Positions 1 through 36,703 of a stretch of DNA of 38,422 nucleotides are shown here, one piece after another. Where the stretch lies: contig PMBF01000050.1 in NCBI GenBank assembly GCA_003152875.1, positions 120,312-158,733 of the forward strand, read 5' to 3'. The notes beneath the pieces are model-generated. The model was given only the letters and a program-made list of their open reading frames with translations. It made no database searches and was not told the origin of the DNA. How positions within the stretch are numbered: the first letter of the stretch is position 1; each line of letters opens with the position of its first letter. This stretch comes from Ignavibacteriota bacterium (GTDB lineage: Bacteria; Bacteroidota; Ignavibacteria; UBA10030; UBA6906). Both the position numbers and the translations under genes were made by a program.

Positions 1-1807
1 TGTCGCCGATGACCGTGTAGGCAAATTTCCCGGATGACCCCATGTTCCCCACCACCATCACTCCCGTGTTGATGCCGATCCGCACATGGAAGGCGGGGCG
101 GCCTTCGGCGAGCCACCGGCGGTTGAGGTCGGCCAGCGCGTTCCGCATCGACAGCGCTGTGCGGCAGGCCCGCAGCGCATGATCGCTCTGCGGCACCGGG
201 GCGCCCCAGAAGGCCATGATGGCGTCCCCCTCGTATTTGTCGAGCGTCCCGTTGTGCCTGAAAATCACCGCCGACATGGCATCAAGGTACTCGTTCAGGA
301 GCGCGACCAGGCGCTCGGGCTCCAGCGTCTGGGCGATCGTGGTAAACCCCTCAATGTCGCTGAACAGTACCGTCAGCTCCTTCCGGGCTCCGCCCAGGGC
401 AAGCTTCTCGGGGTTGGCCAGCAGCTCATCAACGACCGACGGGTTGACATACGTGCTGAACATGGCCTTGATCATCAGCCGCTGCCGGCGCTCCGTGACC
501 ATGTTATACACCGTGGAACCGATGTACCCGCCCAGAACAGCCGTCATGGGGCTGACCACCGCGGCAACATAGCTTTCATGATTGAAAAGCCAGAGAGTGA
601 TCCCGGCGACGAGCAGAATCTCGACGGCGACGAACAGGAACGCAGCGATTTCGACCACCGCCTGTTTTCCCCGAGTGAGACCCCGCATCGATGCCGTGGC
701 GAAGAATGTCAGAAGCACCAGGATCACGACTTCCGGGATCTCGCTGCCCGGGCTCTGCATCACAAGAAAATCGCTGCGGAGGAGGTTCTCAATGACGTTG
801 GCATGGATTTCCACGCCGTACATCTGGTTGTCGCCGCGCTGGCGGCCGCTTCCCATCGACACCGGGAAGAGGTCCTTGTACTCAGGCACGGTCACGCCGA
901 CCAGCACGATCTTGTTCCTGAATGTCCCGTCGTACAGATATCCGTAGTCGGGGTCGCTGAAGGTGTTGGTCTGCGCCCCCGTCTCCCGTTCCTCGACAGT
1001 CGTGAAGGTTTCATCGTCGATAACGTCGTGAAACCGGATGTGCTTGAAGGTGCCGTTGGGCCCGTAGAAGTTGATGAGGAACGATGAGGGATCGTACTTC
1101 GGGATCACCCGTCCGGCGTACAGGAAGGCATCCGGGCTGTTGGCAGGCGCCGTCAGAGGGGGGAGCCCAAGCACGCGGTTGAGCACCGCAAACCCCAGCG
1201 TCGGGATGGCCAGGCCTGTGTCGCCGGCTGCCGACATCAAGAAATACGGGTTGTAGACCCGGTAGATCCCGTCTGCATCCCCCCTGATATTCACAAGTCC
1301 GAGAGCGCTGTCGGCTCCGAAGAACATGTTGCCGAATTCGTGCCGCAGCGACCTCCGTTCATACCGTTCCTCATCCTGTTCGCGTTTGCCTGCCAAAATC
1401 ACGAACCCGGTCTCCCGGATGGCGCTCATGAGCGTGCTGTCGCCCGCAGGGCCGTGTCCGTCCGGCGCATCGAAGATCAGGTCGAGACCGACCGCCCGGG
1501 CGCCGGCGCGCTGGAGATTCCGCACCAGGCGGGCGTAGTAATCCCGCGGCCACGGAAATGCCTCGGGGAGGGAGCGGAAGGCTTCCTCGTTGATCTCCAC
1601 AATGACAACGCCGGCGGATTCGTGAACGGTGGGATTGACGCCGCGGTAGAGGAATCGGAAATCGATGGAGGCGAGCTCGAGGCGCTGGAAGAGCCCCAGA
1701 TGAAAAACCTCCTCGACCGTCAGAGTGACAACCAGAAGGGCGATTGCAGCGGCAATGGCTGTCCGCGTCAACCAAATGCGCATGCGAGATGTCCGTACGC
1801 TGAACAT
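1..1807 (-). CDS. CHASE2-domain adenylate/guanylate cyclase (3' end cut by window edge)
   Basis: Predicted inner-membrane class III nucleotide cyclase making cAMP (or cGMP) from ATP (GTP). About 602 residues are visible. A hydrophobic helix near residues 15-35 is followed by an extracytoplasmic CHASE2 sensor region (to about residue 340), a cluster of hydrophobic helices (about 350-440) and the start of the catalytic domain. The metal-binding aspartates are present in FSDIEGFT (D484) and in KYEGDAIMAFWGAP (D528); the lysine of the latter motif fits adenine recognition. The visible part ends at the conserved YTVIGD, so roughly 100 residues or more are missing. The start is ambiguous: ATG 1807 or ATG 1783, neither with a clear Shine-Dalgarno. 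It follows the barrel gene by 47 bp on the same strand and is probably the last or near-last gene of the 6232-1 operon. Family assignment is firm; the stimulus is unknown. Confidence 0.93.
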   Translation of the reverse strand, partial: MFSVRTSRMRIWLTRTAIAAAIALLVVTLTVEEVFHLGLFQRLELASIDFRFLYRGVNPTVHESAGVVIVEINEEAFRSLPEAFPWPRDYYARLVRNLQRAGARAVGLDLIFDAPDGHGPAGDSTLMSAIRETGFVILAGKREQDEERYERRSLRHEFGNMFFGADSALGLVNIRGDADGIYRVYNPYFLMSAAGDTGLAIPTLGFAVLNRVLGLPPLTAPANSPDAFLYAGRVIPKYDPSSFLINFYGPNGTFKHIRFHDVIDDETFTTVEERETGAQTNTFSDPDYGYLYDGTFRNKIVLVGVTVPEYKDLFPVSMGSGRQRGDNQMYGVEIHANVIENLLRSDFLVMQSPGSEIPEVVILVLLTFFATASMRGLTRGKQAVVEIAAFLFVAVEILLVAGITLWLFNHESYVAAVVSPMTAVLGGYIGSTVYNMVTERRQRLMIKAMFSTYVNPSVVDELLANPEKLALGGARKELTVLFSDIEGFTTIAQTLEPERLVALLNEYLDAMSAVIFRHNGTLDKYEGDAIMAFWGAPVPQSDHALRACRTALSMRNALADLNRRWLAEGRPAFHVRIGINTGVMVVGNMGSSGKFAYTVIGD

Positions 1808-1854
1808 ACCGGTGGGCGTCTCAGTCGTTTGGAAGAGGGGGCAGCATCCAGGTC

Positions 1855-4284
1855 TCAGAGATCGTAGCGATACCGGAGGCTGAGGTAGTTGTCATCGCGC
1901 ACGCCGTCGTTTTTGAAATAGCTGAATTCACCAATGAGCCGCATGGATCTGTAAATGGTCCACTCCGTCTGAAGGTCAAACACCGTCCGTTTGAAATCGC
2001 CGAAGGTCGGGCTCACCGAGCCCTGGAGGACCAGATCCGCCGGGATGAGTTCATAGCGGGCCTGTACACCTATCGTGCTGTAGTCCAGCCGCTGGAGCGG
2101 TCCGCCGTGCACCTGCGCGGGAAGCTTGTTGAAGTTCAACGCGACGTCCAGACTCGTGGTCAGCGGTATCCCGTACCGTGTTGCAAGAGAGAGACCCAGC
2201 GTGAGGGCGTTGACATCCAGTCCTCGTGCGGTGGCGTCGGAGCGGTCCGAGGTTGAGAAGTTTATGGATGCGGTATGCATCGCTCCGTACGTGAAATCAT
2301 AGGATGACTGCACGAACAAACGGTTTGTCACATCGCTCACCGCGCTGAGGGAGTCCGGGCCGTTTGTGGGGAGTCCGTTCGCATTGTCGTACCTGCTGTA
2401 CCCTATGGTGGTGACCGGAACATCCTGCCCGGGGGCATACGTCACGGCAATGTTCACCGTTCCGTAGGTCGTCGTTGCAGCCTTGGTGTGCGAGGTGTTG
2501 TCGTTCAACTGCTCGTATCCCGCCGCCAGCAGGAGGGAGTTGTCGACAAGGCGGACCCGGTCGTTCACGTTGAAACCCTGCACGTCCTTGCGCAGGAACG
2601 ACTGGCCGAATGAGGTGTAGTCGCTGCCCCGGTACAGGTAGGTGAATTTCAGCACGTTATCGAAATAATGCAGCTGCAGGGAAGCCTCCCCGGCTGCGGT
2701 GCTCAGGCGCCTGAGCGAAAGTGGACGGAGGTTTTCATTGACCGTGATGAAGCGGGAGAGAATGTCTCGAACCTCGCGGACGGTGCTGGAGTCGTGGGGG
2801 AACAGCTCGCCGATCCGCTGATCAGTGATCGTGCCGCTGGAAATATCGCTGTTGTAGGCGCTGAATGCCCCCTGGGCAGCCAGTTCGATCCGCCGGTCGT
2901 CGAGGCGGGTCACGAAGTCCATGCCCAGGACCACGTTTTCCTGCGGCCTCGAGCCTGTGGTGATGGAGCCTGTCTCGTCCTGCGAATGCATCCAGGTGAA
3001 CCCGAGCTCCCAATGCTCCCCTGATGAAAAGCTCGGCCGTACTGCAAGGATGGACCGTTCATATGTGCCGAAGGAGTACTTTCCCCATACTCCCGGCCCC
3101 AGCCTGGCGTAGGCGGCGGACGGATCAGAGAGCTGTTCGGCCGCCAGCAATGTGTCGGCGATCGATTTCAAAAGCGCGCCTTCGATCGGCTTGCTGGTCT
3201 GGCCGCTGCTGACGGCCACGCTGAAGAAACCGACTGCTGCCGACGCGTGCACACCCCTGACCCGCATTCCGCTCAGGATCAGGTCGGGAAACGTCGGAGT
3301 CTGGTCGCCGTACCCCGCCCGGATCCAGGGGGATTCCACCCCGATGAAGTATCGGTCCTGGGGCTGCCGGTCGCTTTTCTCGTCCGATGTAAGAAAGGTA
3401 TTGGCTACAAAGCGCCAGTCGGAATACCGGAGTCCCAGGTTGATGGCGCCGCGGTTATACCAGGCGGGTTGCGACGCCACATTCTCCCGCCTCGATTCGA
3501 GCGACACGGACGCGAAATAGGTGACATCGCCCGTGGCGGCCGCCATCCCCTCACCCATCACGGAGAATGTCATCGAAGCCGTGTGATGCGGTTTTCCGGA
3601 CCGGGTAAAGAGACGGACTGAAACGGCGTGTGTACCCGGACCAAGATGGGTCCCCGTGTTCTCGGGAGCGATCACGCCGATTTCGCCGCTGAAGACAACC
3701 TTCGCCGTGACGTCCACGCCGTCCAGCAGAACGCGCGTCCCCCTCCGGTCGACGAGCGTGTCGGCCCGGAGGAGGGAGAACGAGATTACGACATCCTCGG
3801 GATTGAGCGCGAGGTCCGCTTCCGGACTGAGGAAGAGGACCTGCGCCGCACCTCCGGCGGCAACGGTCAGCCGCATCGTCCGCTCCGGGGGCCTGGAGAA
3901 AGGATCGGCTGTCTCGCTCAGCGGATAGGTTTCCAGAGTGCCGCTCGTGGTCGCAAAGACAATGTAGTACTCGACCGACGGTGATTGGACCGCCGATCCT
4001 GGAATCACGGCCTGTGCCGTTGTCCCGCGAATATCCATCTCTGCACGCCGGTAGTCGCTTTCACCGAACGGGCGGTAGACAAGAACAGCGCGCTGTATCC
4101 CCTCGCTCCGTGCCAGCACGGCCGTCACCGTCAACGGCGCTCCGGCAATGGCCTCAGCAGGTGAAATGGAAGACACCCGGGTGGAAACCTGCGAGAGCAC
4201 AATGTCGACCGGAACAAGCGTGCACAGAACGAGGAAGGTACCGGCAACAGCCGGTGCTGCTCTGGAAAGGAAATTCATCTGCAT
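1855..4284 (-). CDS. large exported protein with Ig-like N-terminal domains and predicted outer-membrane beta-barrel
   Basis: 809 residues, no family recognised by name. A signal peptide covers about residues 1-31. Residues 35-140 and 150-245 look like two Ig-like beta-sandwich domains (first begins VSSISPAEAIAGAPLTV). From about 255 to the end there are alternating polar/hydrophobic strands, many aromatic residues and a terminal strand ending LSLRYRYDL, as expected of an outer-membrane barrel assembled by BAM. It lies between the FecR-domain gene (165-bp gap) and the CHASE2 cyclase (47-bp gap), all on one strand. I infer a cell-surface sensor or scaffold coupled to the cyclase; this is not shown by sequence. 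The start could also be the second Met two codons later. No strong Shine-Dalgarno is seen. Confidence 0.8.
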   Translation of the reverse strand: MQMNFLSRAAPAVAGTFLVLCTLVPVDIVLSQVSTRVSSISPAEAIAGAPLTVTAVLARSEGIQRAVLVYRPFGESDYRRAEMDIRGTTAQAVIPGSAVQSPSVEYYIVFATTSGTLETYPLSETADPFSRPPERTMRLTVAAGGAAQVLFLSPEADLALNPEDVVISFSLLRADTLVDRRGTRVLLDGVDVTAKVVFSGEIGVIAPENTGTHLGPGTHAVSVRLFTRSGKPHHTASMTFSVMGEGMAAATGDVTYFASVSLESRRENVASQPAWYNRGAINLGLRYSDWRFVANTFLTSDEKSDRQPQDRYFIGVESPWIRAGYGDQTPTFPDLILSGMRVRGVHASAAVGFFSVAVSSGQTSKPIEGALLKSIADTLLAAEQLSDPSAAYARLGPGVWGKYSFGTYERSILAVRPSFSSGEHWELGFTWMHSQDETGSITTGSRPQENVVLGMDFVTRLDDRRIELAAQGAFSAYNSDISSGTITDQRIGELFPHDSSTVREVRDILSRFITVNENLRPLSLRRLSTAAGEASLQLHYFDNVLKFTYLYRGSDYTSFGQSFLRKDVQGFNVNDRVRLVDNSLLLAAGYEQLNDNTSHTKAATTTYGTVNIAVTYAPGQDVPVTTIGYSRYDNANGLPTNGPDSLSAVSDVTNRLFVQSSYDFTYGAMHTASINFSTSDRSDATARGLDVNALTLGLSLATRYGIPLTTSLDVALNFNKLPAQVHGGPLQRLDYSTIGVQARYELIPADLVLQGSVSPTFGDFKRTVFDLQTEWTIYRSMRLIGEFSYFKNDGVRDDNYLSLRYRYDL

Positions 4285-4449
4285 GTTCGCTGCTGGTGGC
4301 GAGTGACTTCGGATCGCCTGTGGCCTCTCACGATCATCCGGGGCGTGCCGCGCCGGCGCCGTACAGGCGTTGTCCCCGGTGCTCTGGCCCGTGCTGCACC
4401 GATGCCCTGTAGGAGCACACGACGGGTTTCAGTCATGAAGGGGGCACTA

Positions 4450-5136
4450 CTAGTCCCGGTACTCGATGTGCAGGCGCTTCGTCCGGCCCTGGTTGTCGCG
4501 GAGCTCGAACTCCAGCGTTTTTTGCGTCTCGCTCCGGAGTGCATCCTCGGCGCGCCGTCGTTCCGCATCCGTGCTCCGTCTGAAGAAGAGAGAGCCGTCC
4601 GGAGACGAGATCCCGGTAAAACCGGATGCCACGGCTACCGATTGCCGGGAGAGCAAGTTCTGCAGGTCAACGCTCCCTTCGAGCACGATGAGCGTGTCTC
4701 CGGTCCCTGTGATTCTCAACGACCCGCCGGTGCCGCGGATCGAGGCAACCGAGGTCGGAGAGGTGAACCGGAACTCTTCTCCCACACGCTGCTTCTGCAC
4801 AGTAAAGCCGATGACCCCCATGCGCACATCCAGAGATTTCGAGAAGTTGGAGCCGTTCATGACCCCTTTCACCGTCACCTCGGTAAGCTCACGCACCCGG
4901 ACCAGGCTGTTGTCCAGAAACTTGATGATCGCAATGGATTTCTCCCCCGTCCTCACCATATCCCCCGCGCCCAGTGTCTCCCCCCGCTTCGCCAGCTGCC
5001 ACTCTTTGTCGACTTCCTTGTGCGATACCTCAGCGATGACCTTGCTGAGGAGGCCGACCGTGACTCCCGGCGTTCCTGCGTAGCAGCTGGCGCCAAGTGC
5101 GGCCGCTGCAGCAACGAGACGAAATGTGGATCTCAT
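4450..5136 (-). CDS. FecR-domain exported protein
   Basis: 228 residues. A signal peptide covers about 1-20 (a cysteine at 18 in LGASC is only a poor lipobox). It is followed by a FecR domain recognisable from the segment LAKRGETLGAGDMVRTGEKS and the strand pattern IAIIKFLDNSLVRVRELTEV, then TSVASIRGTGGSLRITGTG and a charged C-terminal helix. FecR domains are periplasmic beta-rich modules; in iron-citrate signalling FecR links an outer-membrane barrel to a cytoplasmic sigma factor, but no sigma factor is seen here. Stand-alone FecR-domain proteins also occur beside CHASE2 cyclases. It starts 16 bp after the upstream gene's stop, with GGGG about 10 bases before the ATG, so translation is probably coupled. 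Domain call is firm; role is inferred. Confidence 0.88.
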   Translation of the reverse strand: MRSTFRLVAAAAALGASCYAGTPGVTVGLLSKVIAEVSHKEVDKEWQLAKRGETLGAGDMVRTGEKSIAIIKFLDNSLVRVRELTEVTVKGVMNGSNFSKSLDVRMGVIGFTVQKQRVGEEFRFTSPTSVASIRGTGGSLRITGTGDTLIVLEGSVDLQNLLSRQSVAVASGFTGISSPDGSLFFRRSTDAERRRAEDALRSETQKTLEFELRDNQGRTKRLHIEYRD

Positions 5137-5152
5137 GGTCGTTATTCCCCGG

Positions 5153-6232
5153 TTACTCGAGTCCGACCGACTGTATTGCGTCGGAGTGGGTGCGAAGATA
5201 CTTCAGAAGACCCCCGAGCTCGGCCGGGGAGAAGGGCGCTCCGTTCACCCGTGCGCCCCCTTGGATCTGCAACCCTTCCTCCCTGATCTGGTCGAAGAGC
5301 CCCTTGTATTTCTGATCGAGGGACCGCTCCAGCTCATCGAGCAGGGAGGAGACTGCGGATGGTCCGGGGTTGACCGTGAACGAACGCAGCGGGCTTTTCA
5401 GCAACATGTCCCTTCCTCCCGGCGCCCGTACGTGCCCTTCAACGAACCAGACGTACGTCTTTCCCGGCTGCAACGGCCGGACACCGGCCGCAGGATACTG
5501 CAACGATGTGGTCGCCGTTTCCCGGCTGATTTGCGGGACACCTTGGGCCGATTCCTCTAGACTCGTTTGCCCCGGGAGCTGCTCGAAGACGGAGATGGCC
5601 GATCGGGCTCCATCGAACACCCACTGGAAGAGCGGAAGCGGGCTGACCATTCGGTCCCCGTCGACCGGGAACAACAGTTCTACGGACGATGGGTTCGTCA
5701 GGACAATGGAAAAGACGGCAATCCCCGGGGGGCCGTTCGGAGGAACCTCTTCCACCTTCACGGCAAATGTATACGTGCCGGCGGGGAGCTGCCCGCTGGG
5801 GAGGGCGATGTCCTCGAGTTTCCTCTTGGCCGCCTGATCCGGCTGGTTCAGGGAGTCCCGGATCGTCTTCCCCTTGCCGATATCAAGATTGGTGATCGTG
5901 CGGGCACCGTTGACGGGGAATGCCCTGGTGACAAAATGAAGGGCGGGGTTAAATACTTCGCCGGTTGCCAGTGCCACTCTGAGGTCAACCGTCATGGCCG
6001 CCATGATGGAACGCCCACCTGCATTGATGTCGACGCTGAAAAGCCACTGAGGCGTGGCGGAATTCACGAAATCGACATCGGAGAATGAGAGGACATTGAT
6101 GGGCGCCACGATAGCATTGACCGTGAGGCCCTGGGCGGAAAGGAATCCAGGAATCAGGAGCAGGCCCAGCAGAAAACCGGCCATGAGGGATCTGGATAAT
6201 TCCGGTGTCTGACGGCATTCGGCGGTATCCAT
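5153..6232 (-). CDS. exported protein of unknown function, first gene of FecR/barrel/cyclase cassette
   Basis: 359 residues from the chosen ATG, which has AGAGG about 7 bases upstream; an ATG at 6307 gives a longer, implausible N-terminus, and one at 6184 would begin directly at the signal peptide. The hydrophobic stretch MAGFLLGLLLIPGFLSAQG is a signal peptide. Residues about 40-180 form a beta-rich domain; about 185-300 resemble a fibronectin III-like domain (LQPGKTYVWFVEGHV); about 305-359 are helical and charged. No family recognised. It opens the minus-strand operon with the FecR protein, barrel and cyclase, so I infer an envelope-exposed component of the same system. Confidence 0.8.
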   Translation of the reverse strand: MDTAECRQTPELSRSLMAGFLLGLLLIPGFLSAQGLTVNAIVAPINVLSFSDVDFVNSATPQWLFSVDINAGGRSIMAAMTVDLRVALATGEVFNPALHFVTRAFPVNGARTITNLDIGKGKTIRDSLNQPDQAAKRKLEDIALPSGQLPAGTYTFAVKVEEVPPNGPPGIAVFSIVLTNPSSVELLFPVDGDRMVSPLPLFQWVFDGARSAISVFEQLPGQTSLEESAQGVPQISRETATTSLQYPAAGVRPLQPGKTYVWFVEGHVRAPGGRDMLLKSPLRSFTVNPGPSAVSSLLDELERSLDQKYKGLFDQIREEGLQIQGGARVNGAPFSPAELGGLLKYLRTHSDAIQSVGLE

Positions 6233-6278
6233 GGCGAGCCTCTCACGCGAGGTTGATGAACCAAGGGCGAACTGAGGA

Positions 6279-6307
6279 AAGTTACGAAAACGGCGGGCCT
6301 CCCGCAA
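6279..6307 (-). promoter_or_regulatory. sigma-70-like promoter for the 6232 operon
   Basis: Read on the minus strand: -35 TTGCGG (6302-6307), 17-bp spacer, -10 TAACTT (6279-6284). Transcription would start near 6272, about 40 bases before the ATG at 6232. The motif closely matches the predicted dxr and rlmN promoters in this window (TTGCGN, 17 bp, TACCTT), which raises confidence. Confidence 0.55.
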
Positions 6308-6415: not shown

Positions 6416-7732
6416 TCAGAAATGCAAAAGGTCGTTGTACACGACAAATGCCATGAACGCCAGGAGCAGCACGAACCCGGCCCTCTGAAGCCCCAGCTTG
6501 ATCCGGACCGGAACCTCTCTTCGGAAAATGGCCTCGTAGACCAGAAACGCGAGGTGCCCGCCGTCCAGGGCAGGAAAGGGAAGGATGTTCAAAACCGCCA
6601 GGCTCACACTCAGAAGCGCCATGAATCCCAGGTAGGTAAGCAGACCCATCTCAGCGGTCTGGGTCGCCATCTGGGCAATGCGGATCGGACCGCCTACCGA
6701 TTGACTGAACGGTGTCTTGCCCGTGATGATCTGCCATATCTGCTGGATAAACAGAGTCGTGACATTCCCAATGTCCCGGATTCCGCGCGGCAATGCCTCC
6801 AGGAGCGAGTAGCGCACGCGTGTGATCGGGCCATTATAGCGGGCTCCGAATGTGATCCCGATCCGGCCATCAGAGGTCGGGATTGCGGTACCGCGCATGA
6901 CCTCCCCGTTCCTCCGCCACTCAATTTCCATGGGCTTTCCGGCGCTCGCCTGAACGGCCTCACGGACCTTCTGGTCCATGCGGAGAGGGGTCCCGTTCAG
7001 CGCGAGAAGGACGTCGTTGGGCTTCAGCCCCAACTTTTCCGCCGGCATGCCCGGCTCCACGGTGCCGACCACAATATCGGTGTTCTCCGAAACGATGCCG
7101 AGCGGAGCCTGATCGGGCTCCGGAATGGCCGTTCTCGACAGGAACAGGCTGACAGCGGCGCCTTTGCGGTCCACCAGGAACGTCACGTCATTGCCGAGCG
7201 ATTCGATGTAGACGTTACTGTAGATCTGATCCCAGTTGGAGATCTTCTTGCCGTTGATTTCCAGCACTCTGTCACCGGCCTGGAGCCCCGCCGTTGCAGC
7301 CGCGCTCTTTTCCGCTACGTAGCCGATGGTCGTCGTCTCGCGGACAACGCTTCCCTGAACGTAGTTGATCCCCCAGAAGATGGAGGTGGCGAGAACGAGG
7401 TTCATGATCACGCCGGCGCAGATGACGATCATCCGCTGCCAGACCGGCTTTGCACGGAACTCCCACGGTTCGGGGGGCCGGTTCAGGAACTCCGTGTCAA
7501 AGCTCTCGTCGATCATCCCTGCGATCTTGACATACCCTCCGATCGGGATCCATGAGACACAGTAATCCGTTTCGCCGATCAGTTTGCCGAAGGCTCTCGG
7601 GGGAAAACCGATGGAGAAGCGGTCCACGCGCATCCGGAAGAGCTTGGCCGCAAGGAAATGGCCCAGCTCGTGGACGAAGACGAGCACGCCAAGCGTAATG
7701 ACAAAATACATCAGTGTGGTTAGGAAATGCAT
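6416..7732 (-). CDS. rseP: RseP-family site-2 zinc metalloprotease
   Basis: 438 residues, close to E. coli RseP (450). An inner-membrane intramembrane protease that cleaves membrane-tethered regulators and remnant signal peptides. The zinc motif HELGH lies at residues 21-25 in the first transmembrane helix. Two periplasmic PDZ domains follow (cores VLEINGKKI and VLLALNGTPL). The second active-site motif LNILPFPALDGGH begins at residue 381 with the metal-ligand aspartate at 390, followed by the last membrane helix. It lies 22 bp downstream of dxr on the same strand; dxr-rseP adjacency is common in bacteria. No rseA-like anti-sigma factor is seen nearby, so the substrate is unknown. Confidence 0.95.
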   Translation of the reverse strand: MHFLTTLMYFVITLGVLVFVHELGHFLAAKLFRMRVDRFSIGFPPRAFGKLIGETDYCVSWIPIGGYVKIAGMIDESFDTEFLNRPPEPWEFRAKPVWQRMIVICAGVIMNLVLATSIFWGINYVQGSVVRETTTIGYVAEKSAAATAGLQAGDRVLEINGKKISNWDQIYSNVYIESLGNDVTFLVDRKGAAVSLFLSRTAIPEPDQAPLGIVSENTDIVVGTVEPGMPAEKLGLKPNDVLLALNGTPLRMDQKVREAVQASAGKPMEIEWRRNGEVMRGTAIPTSDGRIGITFGARYNGPITRVRYSLLEALPRGIRDIGNVTTLFIQQIWQIITGKTPFSQSVGGPIRIAQMATQTAEMGLLTYLGFMALLSVSLAVLNILPFPALDGGHLAFLVYEAIFRREVPVRIKLGLQRAGFVLLLAFMAFVVYNDLLHF

Positions 7733-7754: not shown

Positions 7755-8909
7755 TCATTCCACAACGGCTCTCCGTTGATGCACGGCCGTGCGGGTCTGC
7801 GTGTCAATCCGTACCAGGTCCTCCAGCGTCGCCTCCATGAGGGGCGTGTGGCCTGCCAGGGCATCCTCGATGATGCCGGGAATGTCCTGGAACGAGATCT
7901 TTTCCGCCAGGAACAGCTGTACCGCGACCTCGTTCGCTGCGTTCAATACCGCTGGTGCGGTCCCTCCGGCACGCAGCGCCTGGTAGGCAAGCCCGAGGCA
8001 GCGAAACCGCTCCATATCGGGGGGAAAAAACGTCATGGTCCCAAGTGAGACCAGGTCAAGGCGCTTCGACACCGAAGGTCCGCGCTCGGGAAACGTCAGC
8101 GCATACTGGATCGGGATCTTCATGTCCGGGATCCCCAGCTGCGCCTTGATCGACCCGTCCACAAACTCCACCAGGGAGTGAATGATGGACTGGGGGTGGA
8201 CAACCACCTCGATCCGGTCCGCCGGAAGACCGAAAAGCCAGTATGCTTCGATCACCTCAAGCCCCTTGTTCATCAAGGTTGCCGAATCGATGGTGATCTT
8301 GCTACCCATCCTCCAGGTCGGATGCGCCAGCGCCTGCGCGGGGGTGATCCCGCTGAAATGTTCCCAGGGCATGTCGCGGAACGGTCCCCCTGAAGCCGTC
8401 AGGATGAGCCGCGAAACCCCTTTCGCGTCCTCCCCCTGCAGGCACTGGAGGATCGCGCTATGCTCGCTGTCCACGGGGAGCAGCCGTACCCCATGCTCCC
8501 TCACCGCACGCATGATCAGGTCGCCTGCAACAACAAGGGTCTCCTTGTTCGCCAGCGCTATGTCTTTCCCGGCCTCGATTGCCCTCAGGGTAGGGGTCAG
8601 ACCTGCAAAACCTACCAGGGCGCTGACGACAACATCCACCTCCGGCCGCGTCACAGCCTCGATCAACCCGTCATCTCCTGTCAGGACGGCTGTGTGACCG
8701 TTGACATGATGACGAAGGGCTTCCGCTGTGCGCTCGTCCGAAACGACCACGGTGTCAGGCCTGAAACAGGCAACCTGCTCGCGGAGCAGGTCGATGTTCC
8801 TGTGGGCCGTCAATGTCGTCACCCGGAACCTCCCGGGAAACCTTTCGATCACTTCCAGGCTGCTCCTGCCGATGGAGCCGGTCGAGCCCAGGATGGCGAT
8901 ATTCGTCAT
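7755..8909 (-). CDS. dxr: 1-deoxy-D-xylulose 5-phosphate reductoisomerase
   Basis: 384 residues from ATG 8909. Cytosolic enzyme converting DXP to MEP with NADPH, the committed step of the non-mevalonate isoprenoid pathway. The N-terminal NADPH-binding loop GSTGSIG begins at residue 8. The metal-binding/active-site segment DSEHSAI, the flexible loop TASGGPFRD and the GSKITIDSATLMNKGLE motif are all present, and the length is normal. An in-frame ATG at 9071 would add 54 residues not found in the family and would read through the predicted promoter, so it is rejected. No clear Shine-Dalgarno. Cotranscribed with rseP. Confidence 0.96.
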   Translation of the reverse strand: MTNIAILGSTGSIGRSSLEVIERFPGRFRVTTLTAHRNIDLLREQVACFRPDTVVVSDERTAEALRHHVNGHTAVLTGDDGLIEAVTRPEVDVVVSALVGFAGLTPTLRAIEAGKDIALANKETLVVAGDLIMRAVREHGVRLLPVDSEHSAILQCLQGEDAKGVSRLILTASGGPFRDMPWEHFSGITPAQALAHPTWRMGSKITIDSATLMNKGLEVIEAYWLFGLPADRIEVVVHPQSIIHSLVEFVDGSIKAQLGIPDMKIPIQYALTFPERGPSVSKRLDLVSLGTMTFFPPDMERFRCLGLAYQALRAGGTAPAVLNAANEVAVQLFLAEKISFQDIPGIIEDALAGHTPLMEATLEDLVRIDTQTRTAVHQRRAVVE

Positions 8910-8945
8910 GACAGATGCCAGCGCTGAAAATGAGGACAGTAGAAC

Positions 8946-8974
8946 AAGGTACGCAACCCATGGGTGTTTCGCAA
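8946..8974 (-). promoter_or_regulatory. predicted dxr promoter
   Basis: Minus strand: -35 TTGCGA (8969-8974), 17-bp spacer, -10 TACCTT (8946-8951). The start would be near 8939, giving a 5' leader of about 30 bases before dxr. Same motif as upstream of the 6232 operon and rlmN. In the divergent direction a lone TATATT (9108-9113) is the only -10-like box seen ahead of the TPR gene; it has no convincing -35. Confidence 0.55.
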
Positions 8975-9142
8975 CCGAGAGAATCCCCCGATTGTGGAGG
9001 TCTCTTATGAGGAAGAGATCGCCAGGCCCGGGCATTGAGGCAGAAGTTTCGAACTGAGACACTCCCAACACCCGCGGTGCCGGGGTGCTTTCCTGCCTCT
9101 TATTTGATATATTAAGTTCGGATAGGGGAAGAGCGGAGGGGA

Positions 9143-29930: not shown

Positions 29931-30695
29931 ATGCTGGTGATTGCACACAGGGGGAATTCAGCCCACGCTCCCGAAAACACCATGACGGCCTTCCGCATGG
30001 CGGCGGAAGCGGGCGCCGACATGATCGAGCTCGATGTCCGCCTGACACTCGATGGTGCTCTGGCCGTCATCCACGACCGCCGCCTGGAGCGGACGACCAC
30101 TGGCCGCGGCCCCCTTCGACGTCAGACCCGCAGGAGCCTGGCGGATCTCGATGCGGGAAGCTGGTTCGCCCGGCGGTATGCGGGGGAACAGGTTCCCCTG
30201 CTGCAGGAAATCCTGGAAGCTCTGCCCCGCTCCCTGGGCATCAACGTCGAGGCGAAGACCGACGGTGAGCCGCGCTGGAGGAAACGCATGGTACCCGCGC
30301 TGGCCGAGATCCTGCGCCGGCACGCTCATGGGCGCGCCATCCTGGTCTCCTCGTTCAACCATGCGCTGCTCCGTCGCCTCAAAGTCCTCGACCCGTCAAT
30401 CCGGACCGGGGCTCTTGCTGTTCCCCTGCGCGATGCCGCACGGCGGCCTTCGTCTCTTGCCCGCAGCCTCTCGGTCTCCGCCTTTATCTGTAGCCGCTCG
30501 ATGCTCCGGAAACGGTTTGTCCTCGATGCGCATGCCCACGGGCTCCAGCTGTTTGTCTACGGGGTCAATACCGCCCGCCATCTCATCCGTCCTCGCAGAT
30601 TTGGCGCCGACGGCATCATCACCAACTATCCGGAGCGCATGCTGCGCCTCCTGGGCCGCTCACCCGTACGCCATTTCCCGGCACACTCGCTATGA
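29931..30695 (+). CDS. glycerophosphodiester phosphodiesterase
   Basis: 254 residues, no signal peptide (cytosolic UgpQ-like). Hydrolyses glycerophosphodiesters to glycerol 3-phosphate and an alcohol. The GDPD signature is complete: HRGNSAHAPENT (catalytic His6, metal-binding Glu), ELDVRLTLDG (ExD metal ligands), VIHD (second catalytic His), NVEAK (metal-binding Glu), and the terminal GADGIITNYPERM. Its C-terminal TGA overlaps the start of the CHAT lipoprotein gene (ATGA). Likely in an operon with adk and the CHAT gene. Confidence 0.93.
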   Translation: MLVIAHRGNSAHAPENTMTAFRMAAEAGADMIELDVRLTLDGALAVIHDRRLERTTTGRGPLRRQTRRSLADLDAGSWFARRYAGEQVPLLQEILEALPRSLGINVEAKTDGEPRWRKRMVPALAEILRRHAHGRAILVSSFNHALLRRLKVLDPSIRTGALAVPLRDAARRPSSLARSLSVSAFICSRSMLRKRFVLDAHAHGLQLFVYGVNTARHLIRPRRFGADGIITNYPERMLRLLGRSPVRHFPAHSL

Positions 30696-33280
30696 CGTTC
30701 CGCATGTTCCTCTTCTGCGCCTGCCTTCCCATTCTGGTTCTCGGATGCGGCGGCGAGCCTCAGCGCGAGCAGCAGGCAGACCGCCTTCTGGCCATGGCCG
30801 CAAGGCTCGCCGACCAGGGCTTCCTCAAAGCCTCCCGCGACTCTGCGGAAATCGCCCTGCGATTCTTTGAAGAGGCCGGGCACGAAGGGCGCACGGCCGA
30901 CGCAGAACGCATCCTCGGCGATCTCGATGCGGCTTCCGCCTCCTTCGACGACGCTCTGATCCGCTACCGCAGCGCCCTCCAGCACTACCGCGGCAATGCC
31001 GACCGGGCCGCCGCGCGCTCCATGCTGCTGACAATCGCAGATCTCGACAGGCAGATGGGGAACGACGAGGAAGCGTACGCCAGATATGAAGAGGCTCTCC
31101 GCCTTGCCGGGGCGCTGAAAGACCCGGAGGGAGGACACGAAATCGCGAGCGCCATGCTCCCGCTCGCGCGAACACTCGGCCGTTCCGAGATGGAAAACAC
31201 CCTGCTGGAGGGCATGAATCGCACAGCGGACTCAACGGGCGACCCCGCAGCCCAGGCGCGGGCGCGCAACGAGACCGCCCTCTCTGCATTTCATCGCGGC
31301 GATGCCGCCGGCGCAATCCGGAATCTCGTCGAAGCGCTGGGATTCTCCAGCAGGACCGCAGATTCCCTCCTTACCGCGACGATACTCCGGAACCTCGCGC
31401 GGGGCTACGAGACCGCCGGTTCCGTCAACGAGGCAATGTCCTCATATACGGAGGCTCTCCGGCTGGCCGACCGCATGCGCAAAGGGACGCTCATGCGCGA
31501 GGAACTCCTCATGCGGGTAGGCAACGCATTGCTCAGGCTTCACCGCCCGGCGGACGCGGAGCGCTTCTACCAGGCGGCCGGCGCCTCCGCAACGGCGCGG
31601 GGAGACGACCTGCATCGCGCATACACACTCCTTCAGCTCTCCCATTGCTCACGGGCCTCTCTGCCCGATTCCGCCCGCTCCCTCGCCCGGACGGCTCTCT
31701 CGCTTCTGCAGGAATCTGCGCCCCCCGCCGGAATGGCCTACGCTCTTGGCACTCAGGGCCTTGCCTCGCTCGCAGCAAACCGGCCGGCCGAAGCGGTGGA
31801 TCTCCTTCGCCGGGCTTCCGACGAGGCTGAGGTGACAATCCGGCACCGGGACGACGAAGACCTTCTCGTCGACTGCGAAGCAGCCGCGCTGGGGACCCGT
31901 CCCGCCCCATGGCACGAGGAATCGGTCGACCTCCTGCTGCGGCTGGATCGCCGCGAGGAAGCTCTGGCGCTTTCCCTCCGCCGCTCCCGCTGGCTTCTGT
32001 TCCGGGACCTCAGCCTCCTCAAGCCTTCACTCGCGAACGACTCTCTGAACACCCTCCTTGCAAGGTGGCATGACGCGGCAGCACACTGCGCGGGCGCCGA
32101 AGAGCAGCTCGATCGTGCCCTCACTGGACCCGCAGGCCGCCGTGAACGTATTCCGGAGGTGGCAAAGAACCTCGCGCAGGCACAGGAACTCGCGCGCACA
32201 ACTGCCGCGGCAATCAATTCCCTGAAACCGTCCGCCGGTGCCTTTGTCGGTGCTTCGGCTCCCGGCCTCGAATCCCTCAGGCAGCGGCTGCCTGAAGGCA
32301 CAGCGCTTCTCCTGTATGGCACCACGCGGCACACCGTCCACATCTTTGTTGTCGCCGGAAGGAAGACGTCCGCTGCCGTGGTCGCCATGGACCGGGATCG
32401 TTTGGAGAACCTCTGCAGGCAGTACCAGACCGGCCTGCGGCAGCTCGGGACCGGGGCGGATTCCCTCTCTCCGGCGCAGATGCTGAAAATCGACAGGGCC
32501 CAGCTGCCTGCGGGGTCCCCGCTCTATGACGCCTTCATCCGGCCCGTGGAAGGTGAAATCGCGTCCATGCGCGCACTCCTCATCGCGCCACCGGACGACC
32601 TGCCCTGGATTCCTCTTCATGCCTTGCGGCGGCGCGGAATGCCGGGAACATCGCTCATCGAGCGCTGCCCCGTTTCCTACGTCTACCCTGCGATCCTCTC
32701 CTCCGCCCCGGTCATTCCCCGGCCGGTGAAATCCGTTGTTGCCTTCGGCTACGCCGGATCGTCCGCGCACGATGTGGAATATGAACTGCGCGATATCCGG
32801 GCATTCTTCAAGGAGGCCCGATTCCTGTTCAGCGCACAGGCAATGCTCCAGTCTCTGGAGCGGGAGAACGGCGACCTCGTTCACCTGGCTCTGGACCTCC
32901 GGTGGGATCCCTTCCGGTCAGGCAACTCCTCGTTCTCGCTCCCCGATCCGAAGACCTTCGTGATGAAAGACCTCCCGATCGGCGAGCTCGCACGAGTCTC
33001 GTCGTTCCCCTCCATGGTAGTGTACAATTGCTCTGCGGATGCAGAGGCGGGTGCAAGACAGATCGCGGCCGTGCCGCTGGGCGCGGGCGTGCAGTCCGTG
33101 GTGCTCAATGGACTGTCCACCGGGAGGAAGGGGGATAAGATCTTCGGGGGGGCCCTCTATACGGCGCTGCTCTCCGGTCTTCCGTTGCCGGAAGCGTTCC
33201 GGGCCGCTACAATGGACATCATGCGCCGCAAGGAAGGGATTTCCCCGTTCTGGGCGTCGTTCGCATTGTGGGTAAGATAA
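30692..33280 (+). CDS. TPR-CHAT lipoprotein with degenerate caspase-like site
   Basis: 862 residues. A signal peptide ends in a VLGC lipobox (Cys19), so it is probably anchored in the periplasm; +2 Gly favours the outer membrane. Residues about 25-400 contain TPR-type repeats; about 530-862 form a CHAT (caspase HetF-associated with TPRs) domain. In CHAT proteases the His follows a HLAxH pattern; here the segment is LVHLALD (H731...D735), so the usual catalytic His is Asp, while the Cys is kept (YNCSADAEAG, C780) with the downstream GAGVQSVVLNGLS. It may be inactive or use another base. Exported CHAT proteins are less usual than cytosolic ones. Overlaps the GDPD gene by 4 bp. Confidence 0.87.
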   Translation: MTFRMFLFCACLPILVLGCGGEPQREQQADRLLAMAARLADQGFLKASRDSAEIALRFFEEAGHEGRTADAERILGDLDAASASFDDALIRYRSALQHYRGNADRAAARSMLLTIADLDRQMGNDEEAYARYEEALRLAGALKDPEGGHEIASAMLPLARTLGRSEMENTLLEGMNRTADSTGDPAAQARARNETALSAFHRGDAAGAIRNLVEALGFSSRTADSLLTATILRNLARGYETAGSVNEAMSSYTEALRLADRMRKGTLMREELLMRVGNALLRLHRPADAERFYQAAGASATARGDDLHRAYTLLQLSHCSRASLPDSARSLARTALSLLQESAPPAGMAYALGTQGLASLAANRPAEAVDLLRRASDEAEVTIRHRDDEDLLVDCEAAALGTRPAPWHEESVDLLLRLDRREEALALSLRRSRWLLFRDLSLLKPSLANDSLNTLLARWHDAAAHCAGAEEQLDRALTGPAGRRERIPEVAKNLAQAQELARTTAAAINSLKPSAGAFVGASAPGLESLRQRLPEGTALLLYGTTRHTVHIFVVAGRKTSAAVVAMDRDRLENLCRQYQTGLRQLGTGADSLSPAQMLKIDRAQLPAGSPLYDAFIRPVEGEIASMRALLIAPPDDLPWIPLHALRRRGMPGTSLIERCPVSYVYPAILSSAPVIPRPVKSVVAFGYAGSSAHDVEYELRDIRAFFKEARFLFSAQAMLQSLERENGDLVHLALDLRWDPFRSGNSSFSLPDPKTFVMKDLPIGELARVSSFPSMVVYNCSADAEAGARQIAAVPLGAGVQSVVLNGLSTGRKGDKIFGGALYTALLSGLPLPEAFRAATMDIMRRKEGISPFWASFALWVR

Positions 33281-34355: not shown

Positions 34356-35417
34356 GTGCGCCGCTCGTTCAAATATCGCCTCTATCCGAACCGCGCCCAA
34401 CTGCCCCGCTTGGGTTCCCTGCTGGATGCTGGCCGCATGCTCTATAACCTTGCGCTGGAACAACGGCGGGATGCATGGCGAAGCCGAAAGCTCTCCTTGA
34501 ACTATTACGATCAAGCGGCCGAACTGAAGGAACTCCGCGACGCTTTTCCCCAATTGTCTACGTTGAACTATTCTTCTTGTCAGGATGTTTTGCGCCGACT
34601 GCAAAAATCCTTCAACGGATTCTTCGGTAGAGTGAAACGTGGTGGAGCAGGCTTCCCACGTTTCAAGGCTCGCGAGAGATGGGATTCGATTGTTTTCCCC
34701 GCGTATGGCGATGGCATTCGACTGAATGGGAAACTCCGAGTTCAGAATGTCGGGCTGGTGCGGATCAACGTTCACCGGGAAATCCTTGGCACGATCAAGA
34801 CTGTGACGATCAGGCGCGAGGACGAAAGGTGGTATGCCGTCTTCTCCTGCGACGACGTTCCTGCGAGAACATTCCCAAGTGCGCGTCAGGAAGTTGGGGT
34901 CGATGTTGGCCTGTTGTCTTTCGCAACACTGTCCACTGGCGAGAGCGTCCCCAATCCGCGATGGTATCGACATACACAAGTGGCTCTTGCCGATGCTCAA
35001 CGGAGACGGGATACAAAGCGCGCTCGGTGTCTGCACGAGAAGGCAAAGCATCAACGCAGCGATTTTCAGCATAAACTTGCTCTGCGTTTGGTGCGAGAAA
35101 ATACGCTCATCGCCGTCGAAGATATTGGATCAAGAGCATTGATCGAGTCGTCTTCACGGGGATTATCAAAATCAATCAGTGATGCCGCGTGGTCGCAGTT
35201 CCTGAACATCCTGTCGTACAAAGCGGAAGAAGCTGGGCGACAGTTTGTGAAAGTCAATCCGCGCGGCACAAGTTCAACGTGCTCGCGGTGTGGCAAAGAG
35301 AAGAAGAAACTTCTCTCTGAACGTGTACACCAGTGTGAATGCGGGCTTGTCATCGATCGCGATCTCAACGCTTCCTTGAATATCTTACGGCTCGGACGGA
35401 GCCTTGCTGTTGCTTGA
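34356..35417 (+). CDS. tnpB: TnpB RNA-guided endonuclease
   Basis: 353 residues, GTG start directly after the tnpA stop with AGGAAAG just upstream. TnpB is an RNA-guided nuclease related to Cas12. N-terminal helix-turn-helix-like and oligonucleotide-binding region, then RuvC-I D183 (GVDVGLLSFATL), RuvC-II E255 (LIAVEDIG), a zinc ribbon Cys309/312/327/329 (CSRCG...CECG), and RuvC-III IDRDLNASLNIL (D334/D336). All catalytic residues are present, so the nuclease may be active. The helical stretch between RuvC-I and RuvC-II (WYRHTQ...RARCLHEKAKHQRSDF) looks about 10-15 residues shorter than in typical family members. Confidence 0.92.
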   Translation: MRRSFKYRLYPNRAQLPRLGSLLDAGRMLYNLALEQRRDAWRSRKLSLNYYDQAAELKELRDAFPQLSTLNYSSCQDVLRRLQKSFNGFFGRVKRGGAGFPRFKARERWDSIVFPAYGDGIRLNGKLRVQNVGLVRINVHREILGTIKTVTIRREDERWYAVFSCDDVPARTFPSARQEVGVDVGLLSFATLSTGESVPNPRWYRHTQVALADAQRRRDTKRARCLHEKAKHQRSDFQHKLALRLVRENTLIAVEDIGSRALIESSSRGLSKSISDAAWSQFLNILSYKAEEAGRQFVKVNPRGTSSTCSRCGKEKKKLLSERVHQCECGLVIDRDLNASLNILRLGRSLAVA

Positions 35418-35453
35418 GCAGAAGCCGCCCCGCTTGCGGGACGGAGTCGTCAC
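35330..35453 (+). ncRNA. predicted omega RNA (TnpB guide RNA scaffold)
   Basis: In characterised IS200/IS605 elements the guide RNA overlaps the 3' end of tnpB, ends at the right-end boundary, and reads the flanking DNA as guide. Here only 36 bases separate the tnpB stop from the predicted boundary at 35453, so the scaffold must overlap tnpB. The 5' limit given is a guess. The guide would begin at 35454 (AAAGTAGCAC...). Confidence 0.35.
35425..35444 (+). repeat. IS right-end hairpin
   Basis: CCGcCCCGC, loop TT, GCGGGaCGG: an 8-pair stem with one mismatch, 7 bases after the tnpB stop and 9 bases before the presumed right cleavage site. A near-identical hairpin occurs at 6356-6374. Confidence 0.65.
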
Positions 35454-35484
35454 AAAGTAGCACTTCTTCTCTCGAAAGGAAACA

Positions 35485-35518
35485 CGGGTCCCCGGGCCAT
35501 CCGAAGGCCCGGAACCCG
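35485..35518. repeat. strong hairpin beside the IS insertion point
   Basis: CGGGT + CCGGGCC pair with GGCCCGG + ACCCG across a 7-base loop, with a small CC/A internal bulge. It lies about 30 bp right of the IS. On the minus strand it is followed by TTTCCTTT, like an intrinsic terminator, but no minus-strand gene ends here. The rest of the 233-bp gap (35418-35650) holds no other feature I can support. Confidence 0.5.
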
Positions 35519-35650
35519 CGCAATTCAATCGAACGCAACAATCCCGCGTCACGTGCGGCGGAAAGGCGCCGTCCCATGTCTCTCACTCGTTTCTTCACGG
35601 GACACGTTGGCTCATCGCGGATTCGCTCGGAGCATCTCCGCCGCCCCGCG

Positions 35651-36703
35651 ATGGTGACGGAAAGCTCTTCCGTCTGGGTGATTCCGCTGCTGTTCGCAGT
35701 ATGCTGCCAGGGATTCCCGCAGGGGCACGAGGGTGGTCTGATCCGTGGGTTGGTCCGCGACTCTCTGTCGGGACAACCGCTGGAGCATGTGAATGTCTTT
35801 CTGGCCTCCACGACCATGGGGACTGGAACGCGTTCCAACGGAAGTTTCGCGCTGCCGAAGGTCCCCCCGGGAGCCTATGACCTGGTCCTCTCCTGTGTCG
35901 GGTACGAACTGAAACGATTGCATGTCGAACTGACGGGTCCCGACACGCTCTCTTACAAAGTCCGGCTGCGGGTCCGGATCATCCCAGTCGAAGGGGTGGA
36001 GGTGGCCGGCAATGCCCGCCAATGGAAGGAACGGCTCGATCACTTCCTGAATGTCTTCCTGGGCGACAGCCGCAACGCGGAACGGTGCCGTCTGGTCAAT
36101 CCGGAGGTGCTGGGGTTCAAAGCCGATACCGCGTTGCGGATGTTGTACGCGACAGCCGATCGCGCCCTCATCGTCGAAAACCGGGCGCTGGGCTACCGGG
36201 TTCGCATCGAGCTGGAACAGTTTCAGTGGAACGTGGAGCGGGAGTATGGAACCTTCGTCGTCTATACACGCTTCGACCCCCTTCAGGGCCCGAATGCTGC
36301 CCAAAGGGCCCAGTGGCAGGAAACCCGCGAAGTCACCTACCGGAGTTCCATGCGGCGTTTTCTGGCCGCCCTGGTCTCCGGCACTCTGGAGGAAGAGCGC
36401 TTCCGCCTGTATGCAGGCAGTCTGGAGGACCTCCAGGTGCGGCTCGGCAAAAGGCTCACTCCGGATCAGCTTGCAGTGGAACAGGTCGCCGGTACTCCCT
36501 TCTTCAGATGGGCCCATGAGGGATGGTTACGGGTTGAACAGGAGAATCCCGAAGGCCCCGCGACAAGCTACATCCGGCTCGCTGAGCCGGTCGTCTTCAT
36601 GAGTGCAAGGGGCATTCTCCGTGATCCTCTGTCGATCGGCGTCCTCGGATACTGGAAGGGTTGCAGAATTGCGGACCTCCTTCCCGATGACTACGTTCCA
36701 TGA
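35651..36703 (+). CDS. exported carboxypeptidase-regulatory-like domain protein
   Basis: 350 residues from ATG 35651, chosen because the signal peptide (VWVIPLLFAVCCQGFPQG) begins just after it; ATG 35576 (AAAGG 9 bases upstream) is a real alternative and adds 25 residues. Residues about 30-110 form a CarboxypepD_reg-like beta-sandwich: GLVRDSLSGQPLEHVNVFLA, then TMGTGTRSNGSFALPKVPPG and YDLVLSCVGYE. The remaining 240 residues are a conserved-looking domain I cannot name (FNAERCRLVNPEVLGF-like segment, WNVEREYGTFVVYTRF, FLAALVSGTLEEERFRLY). Similar proteins in Bacteroidota are cell-envelope associated. Stands alone, downstream of the IS. Confidence 0.82.
   Translation: MVTESSSVWVIPLLFAVCCQGFPQGHEGGLIRGLVRDSLSGQPLEHVNVFLASTTMGTGTRSNGSFALPKVPPGAYDLVLSCVGYELKRLHVELTGPDTLSYKVRLRVRIIPVEGVEVAGNARQWKERLDHFLNVFLGDSRNAERCRLVNPEVLGFKADTALRMLYATADRALIVENRALGYRVRIELEQFQWNVEREYGTFVVYTRFDPLQGPNAAQRAQWQETREVTYRSSMRRFLAALVSGTLEEERFRLYAGSLEDLQVRLGKRLTPDQLAVEQVAGTPFFRWAHEGWLRVEQENPEGPATSYIRLAEPVVFMSARGILRDPLSIGVLGYWKGCRIADLLPDDYVP

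Follow-up and report, generated by a model that had tools for sequence, protein, structure and literature searches.

A conserved four-gene envelope cassette of Ignavibacteria as a candidate relay from an outer-membrane barrel to cAMP

The window, a stretch of 38,422 nucleotides from an Ignavibacteriota genome of 3.96 Mb whose relatives are Ignavibacteria MAGs, carries a conserved cassette of four envelope genes. These encode an exported protein (P359), a FecR-domain protein, a protein with a predicted outer-membrane barrel (P809) and a CHASE2-domain class III adenylate cyclase. The operon probably specifies an envelope-spanning receptor pathway that leads from the barrel to cAMP, for which we infer the interactions, the direction of the signal, the stimulus and the link to a CRP-type regulator. 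Bacteria are known to have few ways of relaying surface signals across two membranes, and in the literature found, a single symbiont is the only case in which an outer-membrane receptor has been shown to have cAMP as its output. If the proposal is true, its far more widely conserved, split version would allow the FecR-to-CHASE2 step to be tested one component at a time, and two conserved families of proteins without an assigned role would gain one.

Gene order and conservation of the cassette

Read along the minus strand of the window, the gene order is dxr, rseP, P359, FecR, P809, cyclase, and all four codirectional envelope genes described in a first-pass annotation of this DNA are present. 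The gene for P359 extends from 6232 to 5153 with an ATG start at 6232, which gives 359 aa; the open reading frame listed for it begins at a TTG at 6307 and comprises 384 aa. The FecR-domain protein (228 aa) is encoded at 5136-4450 and P809 (809 aa) at 4284-1855. The cyclase gene occupies 1..1807 and continues past the window start, with 602 of its 735 aa inside the window. The upstream neighbours rseP (M50 site-2 protease, 6416..7732, minus strand) and dxr (DXP reductoisomerase, 7755..9071, minus strand) lie outside the minimal cassette. The “one clear promoter” previously assigned to the genes was not recovered: a sigma-70 scan of the minus strand upstream of P359 found none, and the promoters of this lineage may not fit the model.

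A survey of gene neighbourhoods, which the earlier annotation had proposed, reveals that the four genes are co-conserved. Profiles built for the analysis were used to scan 84 fetched loci, a set in which species repeat between overlapping subsets (one of them 31 named loci) and whose counts are descriptive, not an independent sample size. The exact order P359-FecR-P809-cyclase is found in 60 of these loci, contig ends truncate 13, and the other 11 depart from it; median intergenic gaps from P359 to the cyclase are 9.5, 54.5 and 6 bp. The exact order spans several families and other classes of the phylum, and P809 relatives are present in 35 of 41 related genomes. Across the phylum, a P809 ortholog (E below 1e-40) was found in 74 of 296 sampled genomes, a tally that ignores kinship between genomes. 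All 74 encode a CHASE2 domain, compared to 35 of the 222 genomes without P809, and the P809 and CHASE2 genes are adjacent in 65 of the 74. In the four genomes of genus g6, P809 and P359 are missing together, and the only intact CHASE2 frames are of a different, ~950-aa kind. The shared gene order is far beyond chance. Melioribacter-like genomes carry it as well (L076/L119).

Strict coupling of the four genes is not universal. In eight Chlorobia-like genomes P809 lies apart, P359 and FecR are still neighbours and CHASE2 is retained; the P359-FecR pairing is seen in a fetched locus for seven of the eight and by match coordinates only in the remaining one (G299). In genome G027 the cyclase has moved to another contig (L146). 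The lone P809 orthologs of the Chlorobia-like genomes (L126-L131, L133) comprise ~870-915 aa, and the other three genes are not nearby: the P359-FecR pair and CHASE2 cyclases lie elsewhere in the genome.

The neighbours dxr and rseP accompany the cassette in much of the order. They are absent in f2, in the examined f7 and f14 loci and, in other classes, at the loci of f21, f32 and f52, yet the cassette stays together there (L026, L027, L132, L134-L137). The proximity of RseP to FecR pointed to regulated proteolysis, an idea that was rejected since several cassette-bearing lineages lack this pairing.

The four proteins

P809 is predicted to consist of a signal peptide, two Ig-like domains (~37-242) and a large C-terminal outer-membrane β-barrel (~255-808). 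An AlphaFold model based on a 26-sequence alignment (mean pLDDT 81) shows two N-terminal β-sandwiches, after which antiparallel strands follow one another in a long run up to the C-terminus. In a Foldseek search against the PDB, the matches are mainly outer-membrane barrels at low TM, with the MtrB-type barrel of 6r2q ranking first, followed by TonB-dependent receptors and FimD ushers, a result which supports the predicted barrel as a fold class and not any specific relative. The earlier description of P809 as an Ig-like/β-barrel protein is therefore upheld at the level of structure prediction, in which the barrel does appear. Weak PDB sequence matches point to the Ig domains of peptidylarginine deiminase. 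No TonB plug or STN domain was matched by Pfam in P809 or 24 relatives. A scan of the genome contigs with P809 alone gave no match; a 25-row alignment was too diverse for patterns, whereas a 9-row alignment worked.

P359, with a signal peptide that ends in LSA before QG, is predicted (pLDDT 84) to fold into two Ig/FN3-like β-sandwich domains (~37-180 and 185-290) and a C-terminal helical segment (294-348). Neither P359 nor P809 matches any Pfam or NCBIfam family, in agreement with the annotation's statement that two components belong to no recognised family. Two candidate assignments for P359 were discarded: the cyanobacterial DUF928 (PF06051) was hit by one of 24 members at E 0.0045, with none above the cut-off in 41 genomes, and fold matches to transglutaminase reflect tandem β-sandwiches at low TM, not the enzyme. 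No homology was found between P359 and a 241-aa protein beside an Azospirillum CHASE2 cyclase.

The FecR and CHASE2 cyclase domains named in the first-pass annotation both have Pfam matches above the cut-off. In the 228-aa protein, PF04773 matches at E 1.4e-8 and places the FecR domain at residues 60-156, directly preceded by an N-terminal export signal; nearly all orthologs are alike in this respect. The protein lacks the cytoplasmic anti-sigma part of E. coli FecR, and no other FecR domain was found in the genome. Four FecR orthologs, from families f5 and f6, carry at their C-terminus an Ig domain that resembles the first of the two in P809, placed within the FecR ORFs in two cases (L032:9544-10620; L036:6872-7981) and by match coordinates in the other two, and this shared domain links FecR to P809. 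In L032, PF24045 (DUF7354) overlaps the start of the FecR region.

The full-length cyclase has 735 aa (L033:11912-14119; G000:C1:119911-122118). A gap of two Ns (G000:C1:120310-120311) lies inside its gene just before the window; the frame is open across it, and the assembly is uncertain there. The protein comprises an N-terminal transmembrane segment, the CHASE2 domain (PF05226, 4e-49), further transmembrane segments and the cyclase domain (Guanylate_cyc PF00211, 5e-17), both matches being above the cut-off. D484, K524, D528, N605 and R609 are kept in all 41 aligned sequences and the adenine-type T598 in 40 of 41, with Ser in CyaK; these positions are the two metal-binding Asp, the Lys and Thr typical of adenylate cyclases, and the paired Asn and Arg. 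By its domains and the adenine-specifying Lys/Thr pair, the window protein thus qualifies as a predicted CHASE2-domain adenylate cyclase. A CRP-family protein encoded in the same genome combines cNMP and HTH domains, and its GE-x9-RSA motif resembles the cAMP pocket of E. coli CRP.

A second CHASE2 protein of this genome (L087:3-2354, G000:C52; a ~940-aa frame, of the size seen in g6) appears, as read from its sequence, to have CHASE2 joined to an AAA activator domain of the sigma-54 type where the cassette protein has its cyclase.

A putative relay, its precedents and its rivals

In the proposed relay, P809 would form a barrel in the outer membrane with its two Ig domains in the periplasm, and P359, periplasmic or at the surface, would dock on it together with the exported FecR-domain protein. 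The stimulus at P809/P359 could be a ligand, some cargo or a disturbance of the outer membrane. In response, the FecR-domain protein would change how it touches the CHASE2 domain that the inner-membrane cyclase exposes to the periplasm. The resulting shift in cytoplasmic cAMP would then cause the CRP-type regulator to change transcription. A trans-envelope relay with cAMP output, as put forward in the first-pass annotation, is the best-supported reading, because the genes are co-conserved, a barrel is predicted, FecR has no anti-sigma part, and both an intact cyclase and a CRP are encoded; the flow of the signal itself is inferred. Neither of the outcomes that the annotation named as refuting it, a lack of co-conservation in related genomes or of a predicted barrel in P809, was observed.

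The relay reading is further supported by two precedents. Sinorhizobium meliloti needs both NsrA and the CHASE2 cyclase CyaK to perceive a protein signal (PMC7529298; PMC13001267), and the barrel of NsrA has been placed at 600-1200 (PMC7529298). NsrA and CyaK were assigned on pSymB from their position, their length and the domains they contain: an ORF of 1219 aa lies directly upstream of the gene for the CHASE2 cyclase, and in its product FecR (85-179) is followed by TPRs. A Methylocystis plasmid encodes the same kind of FecR-TPR protein adjoining a CHASE2 cyclase. The features shared with NsrA-CyaK are a periplasmic FecR domain, an outer-membrane β-barrel and an adjacent CHASE2 class III cyclase; in the cassette, the cyclase has the catalytic residues and an exported FecR protein beside it, the barrel being a prediction only. 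CyaK and the window cyclase have ~32% identity over 85% of the CyaK length, and homology between P809 and the NsrA barrel was not detectable by sequence (hhalign probability 0.1%). While NsrA unites FecR, TPRs and barrel in one polypeptide, the Ignavibacteria cassette has separate genes for FecR and barrel, Ig domains in place of the TPRs, and P359 in addition. In Campylobacterota, CHASE2 cyclases cluster with a FecR-domain outer-membrane protein, a TPR protein and a phosphodiesterase, for which one pathway was proposed (PMC9239204). That cluster differs from the cassette in including the phosphodiesterase and TPR protein, and P359 or P809 were not reported for it (PMC9239204). The Burkholderia BiofilmReg operon, where a LysM-FecR periplasmic protein adjoins a CHASE2 receptor with histidine kinase/response regulator output (PMC5192318), shares the position of FecR beside CHASE2 but is without barrel or cyclase. 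By analogy, the Ignavibacteria cassette may work like the NsrA-CyaK and Campylobacterota systems, while differing from them in build.

The description of the locus as an undescribed system consequently stands in part. The general idea of FecR, barrel and CHASE2 cyclase has precedent, genetic for NsrA-CyaK and comparative-genomic for Campylobacterota; the split version and its two family-less proteins are undescribed within the searchable literature, and a search for CHASE2 with Ignavibacteria found no paper. What is new is the split architecture, P359, and the resemblance of P359 and the P809 barrel to a separate pair of genes. Weak matches of P809 and P359 elsewhere in the phylum fall side by side, as a ~575-aa barrel and a giant exported protein of ~960-3200 aa, at eight loci (L156-L163, e.g., L157:5834-13876), with one gene in between in L160. 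The ~575-aa barrels, which have no Pfam family where tested, are homologues of the P809 barrel, with 454 aligned columns at E 1e-38 (hhalign), and the N-termini of the giant proteins are homologous to P359 residues 35-294 (E 1e-24). CarboxypepD_reg and similar repeats occur in the giant C-terminal part of the L157 protein. Beside these eight pairs, no FecR or cyclase gene was found. Since a barrel and a P359-type domain are neighbours in two contexts, P359 and P809 may act together, on this indirect evidence.

The same homology raises a rival: P809 and P359 could chiefly be a surface-assembly or secretion pair whose assembly or cargo is monitored by FecR and CHASE2, such that cAMP reports the export state and not an external ligand. 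We regard this as rather unlikely: the pairs homologous to the P809 barrel and to P359 35-294 do exist without FecR or cyclase, but the cassette holds no giant cargo gene, and P359 stops after its docking-like domains. A combined, speculative version, in which a phylum-wide relay shares its barrel/docking pair with the giant-protein export or display system, couples it to FecR-CHASE2 and reports the state of an outer-membrane machine as cAMP, has a similarly small chance of being correct. Less probable still is a set of co-transcribed housekeeping envelope genes, in which the cyclase would sense alone via CHASE2, with structural or transport roles for the barrel and FecR. Such a reading would account for dxr and rseP being likewise conserved alongside in many genomes; however, the four genes hold their order where dxr-rseP is absent, components of the set are jointly missing from g6, and the association of FecR, barrel and CHASE2 cyclase recurs in unrelated phyla and is functional in Sinorhizobium.

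In cell-surface signalling of the FecA-FecR-FecI type, a TonB-dependent receptor and an anti-sigma FecR act on an ECF sigma factor. The cassette has the FecR domain and the outer-membrane barrel in common with this system, but such an arrangement is highly improbable here and is contradicted by what the cassette lacks: a TonB plug or STN domain, the anti-sigma part and internal transmembrane helix of FecR, and an ECF sigma gene, none of which is among the genes identified in the cassette, with dxr and rseP as neighbours and no other FecR in the genome.

Further features of the locus and the window

Downstream of the cyclase, most loci of the order contain a convergent gene for a conserved secreted protein of ~350 aa (L033:10225-11277), for which no family was identified; dnaX and lon often come after this gene. 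Elsewhere in the window, 30692-33280 encodes a TPR-CHAT protein (CHAT domain, E 1.7e-15), with a 272-aa ORF immediately upstream, and 35339-36703 encodes a CarboxypepD_reg protein.
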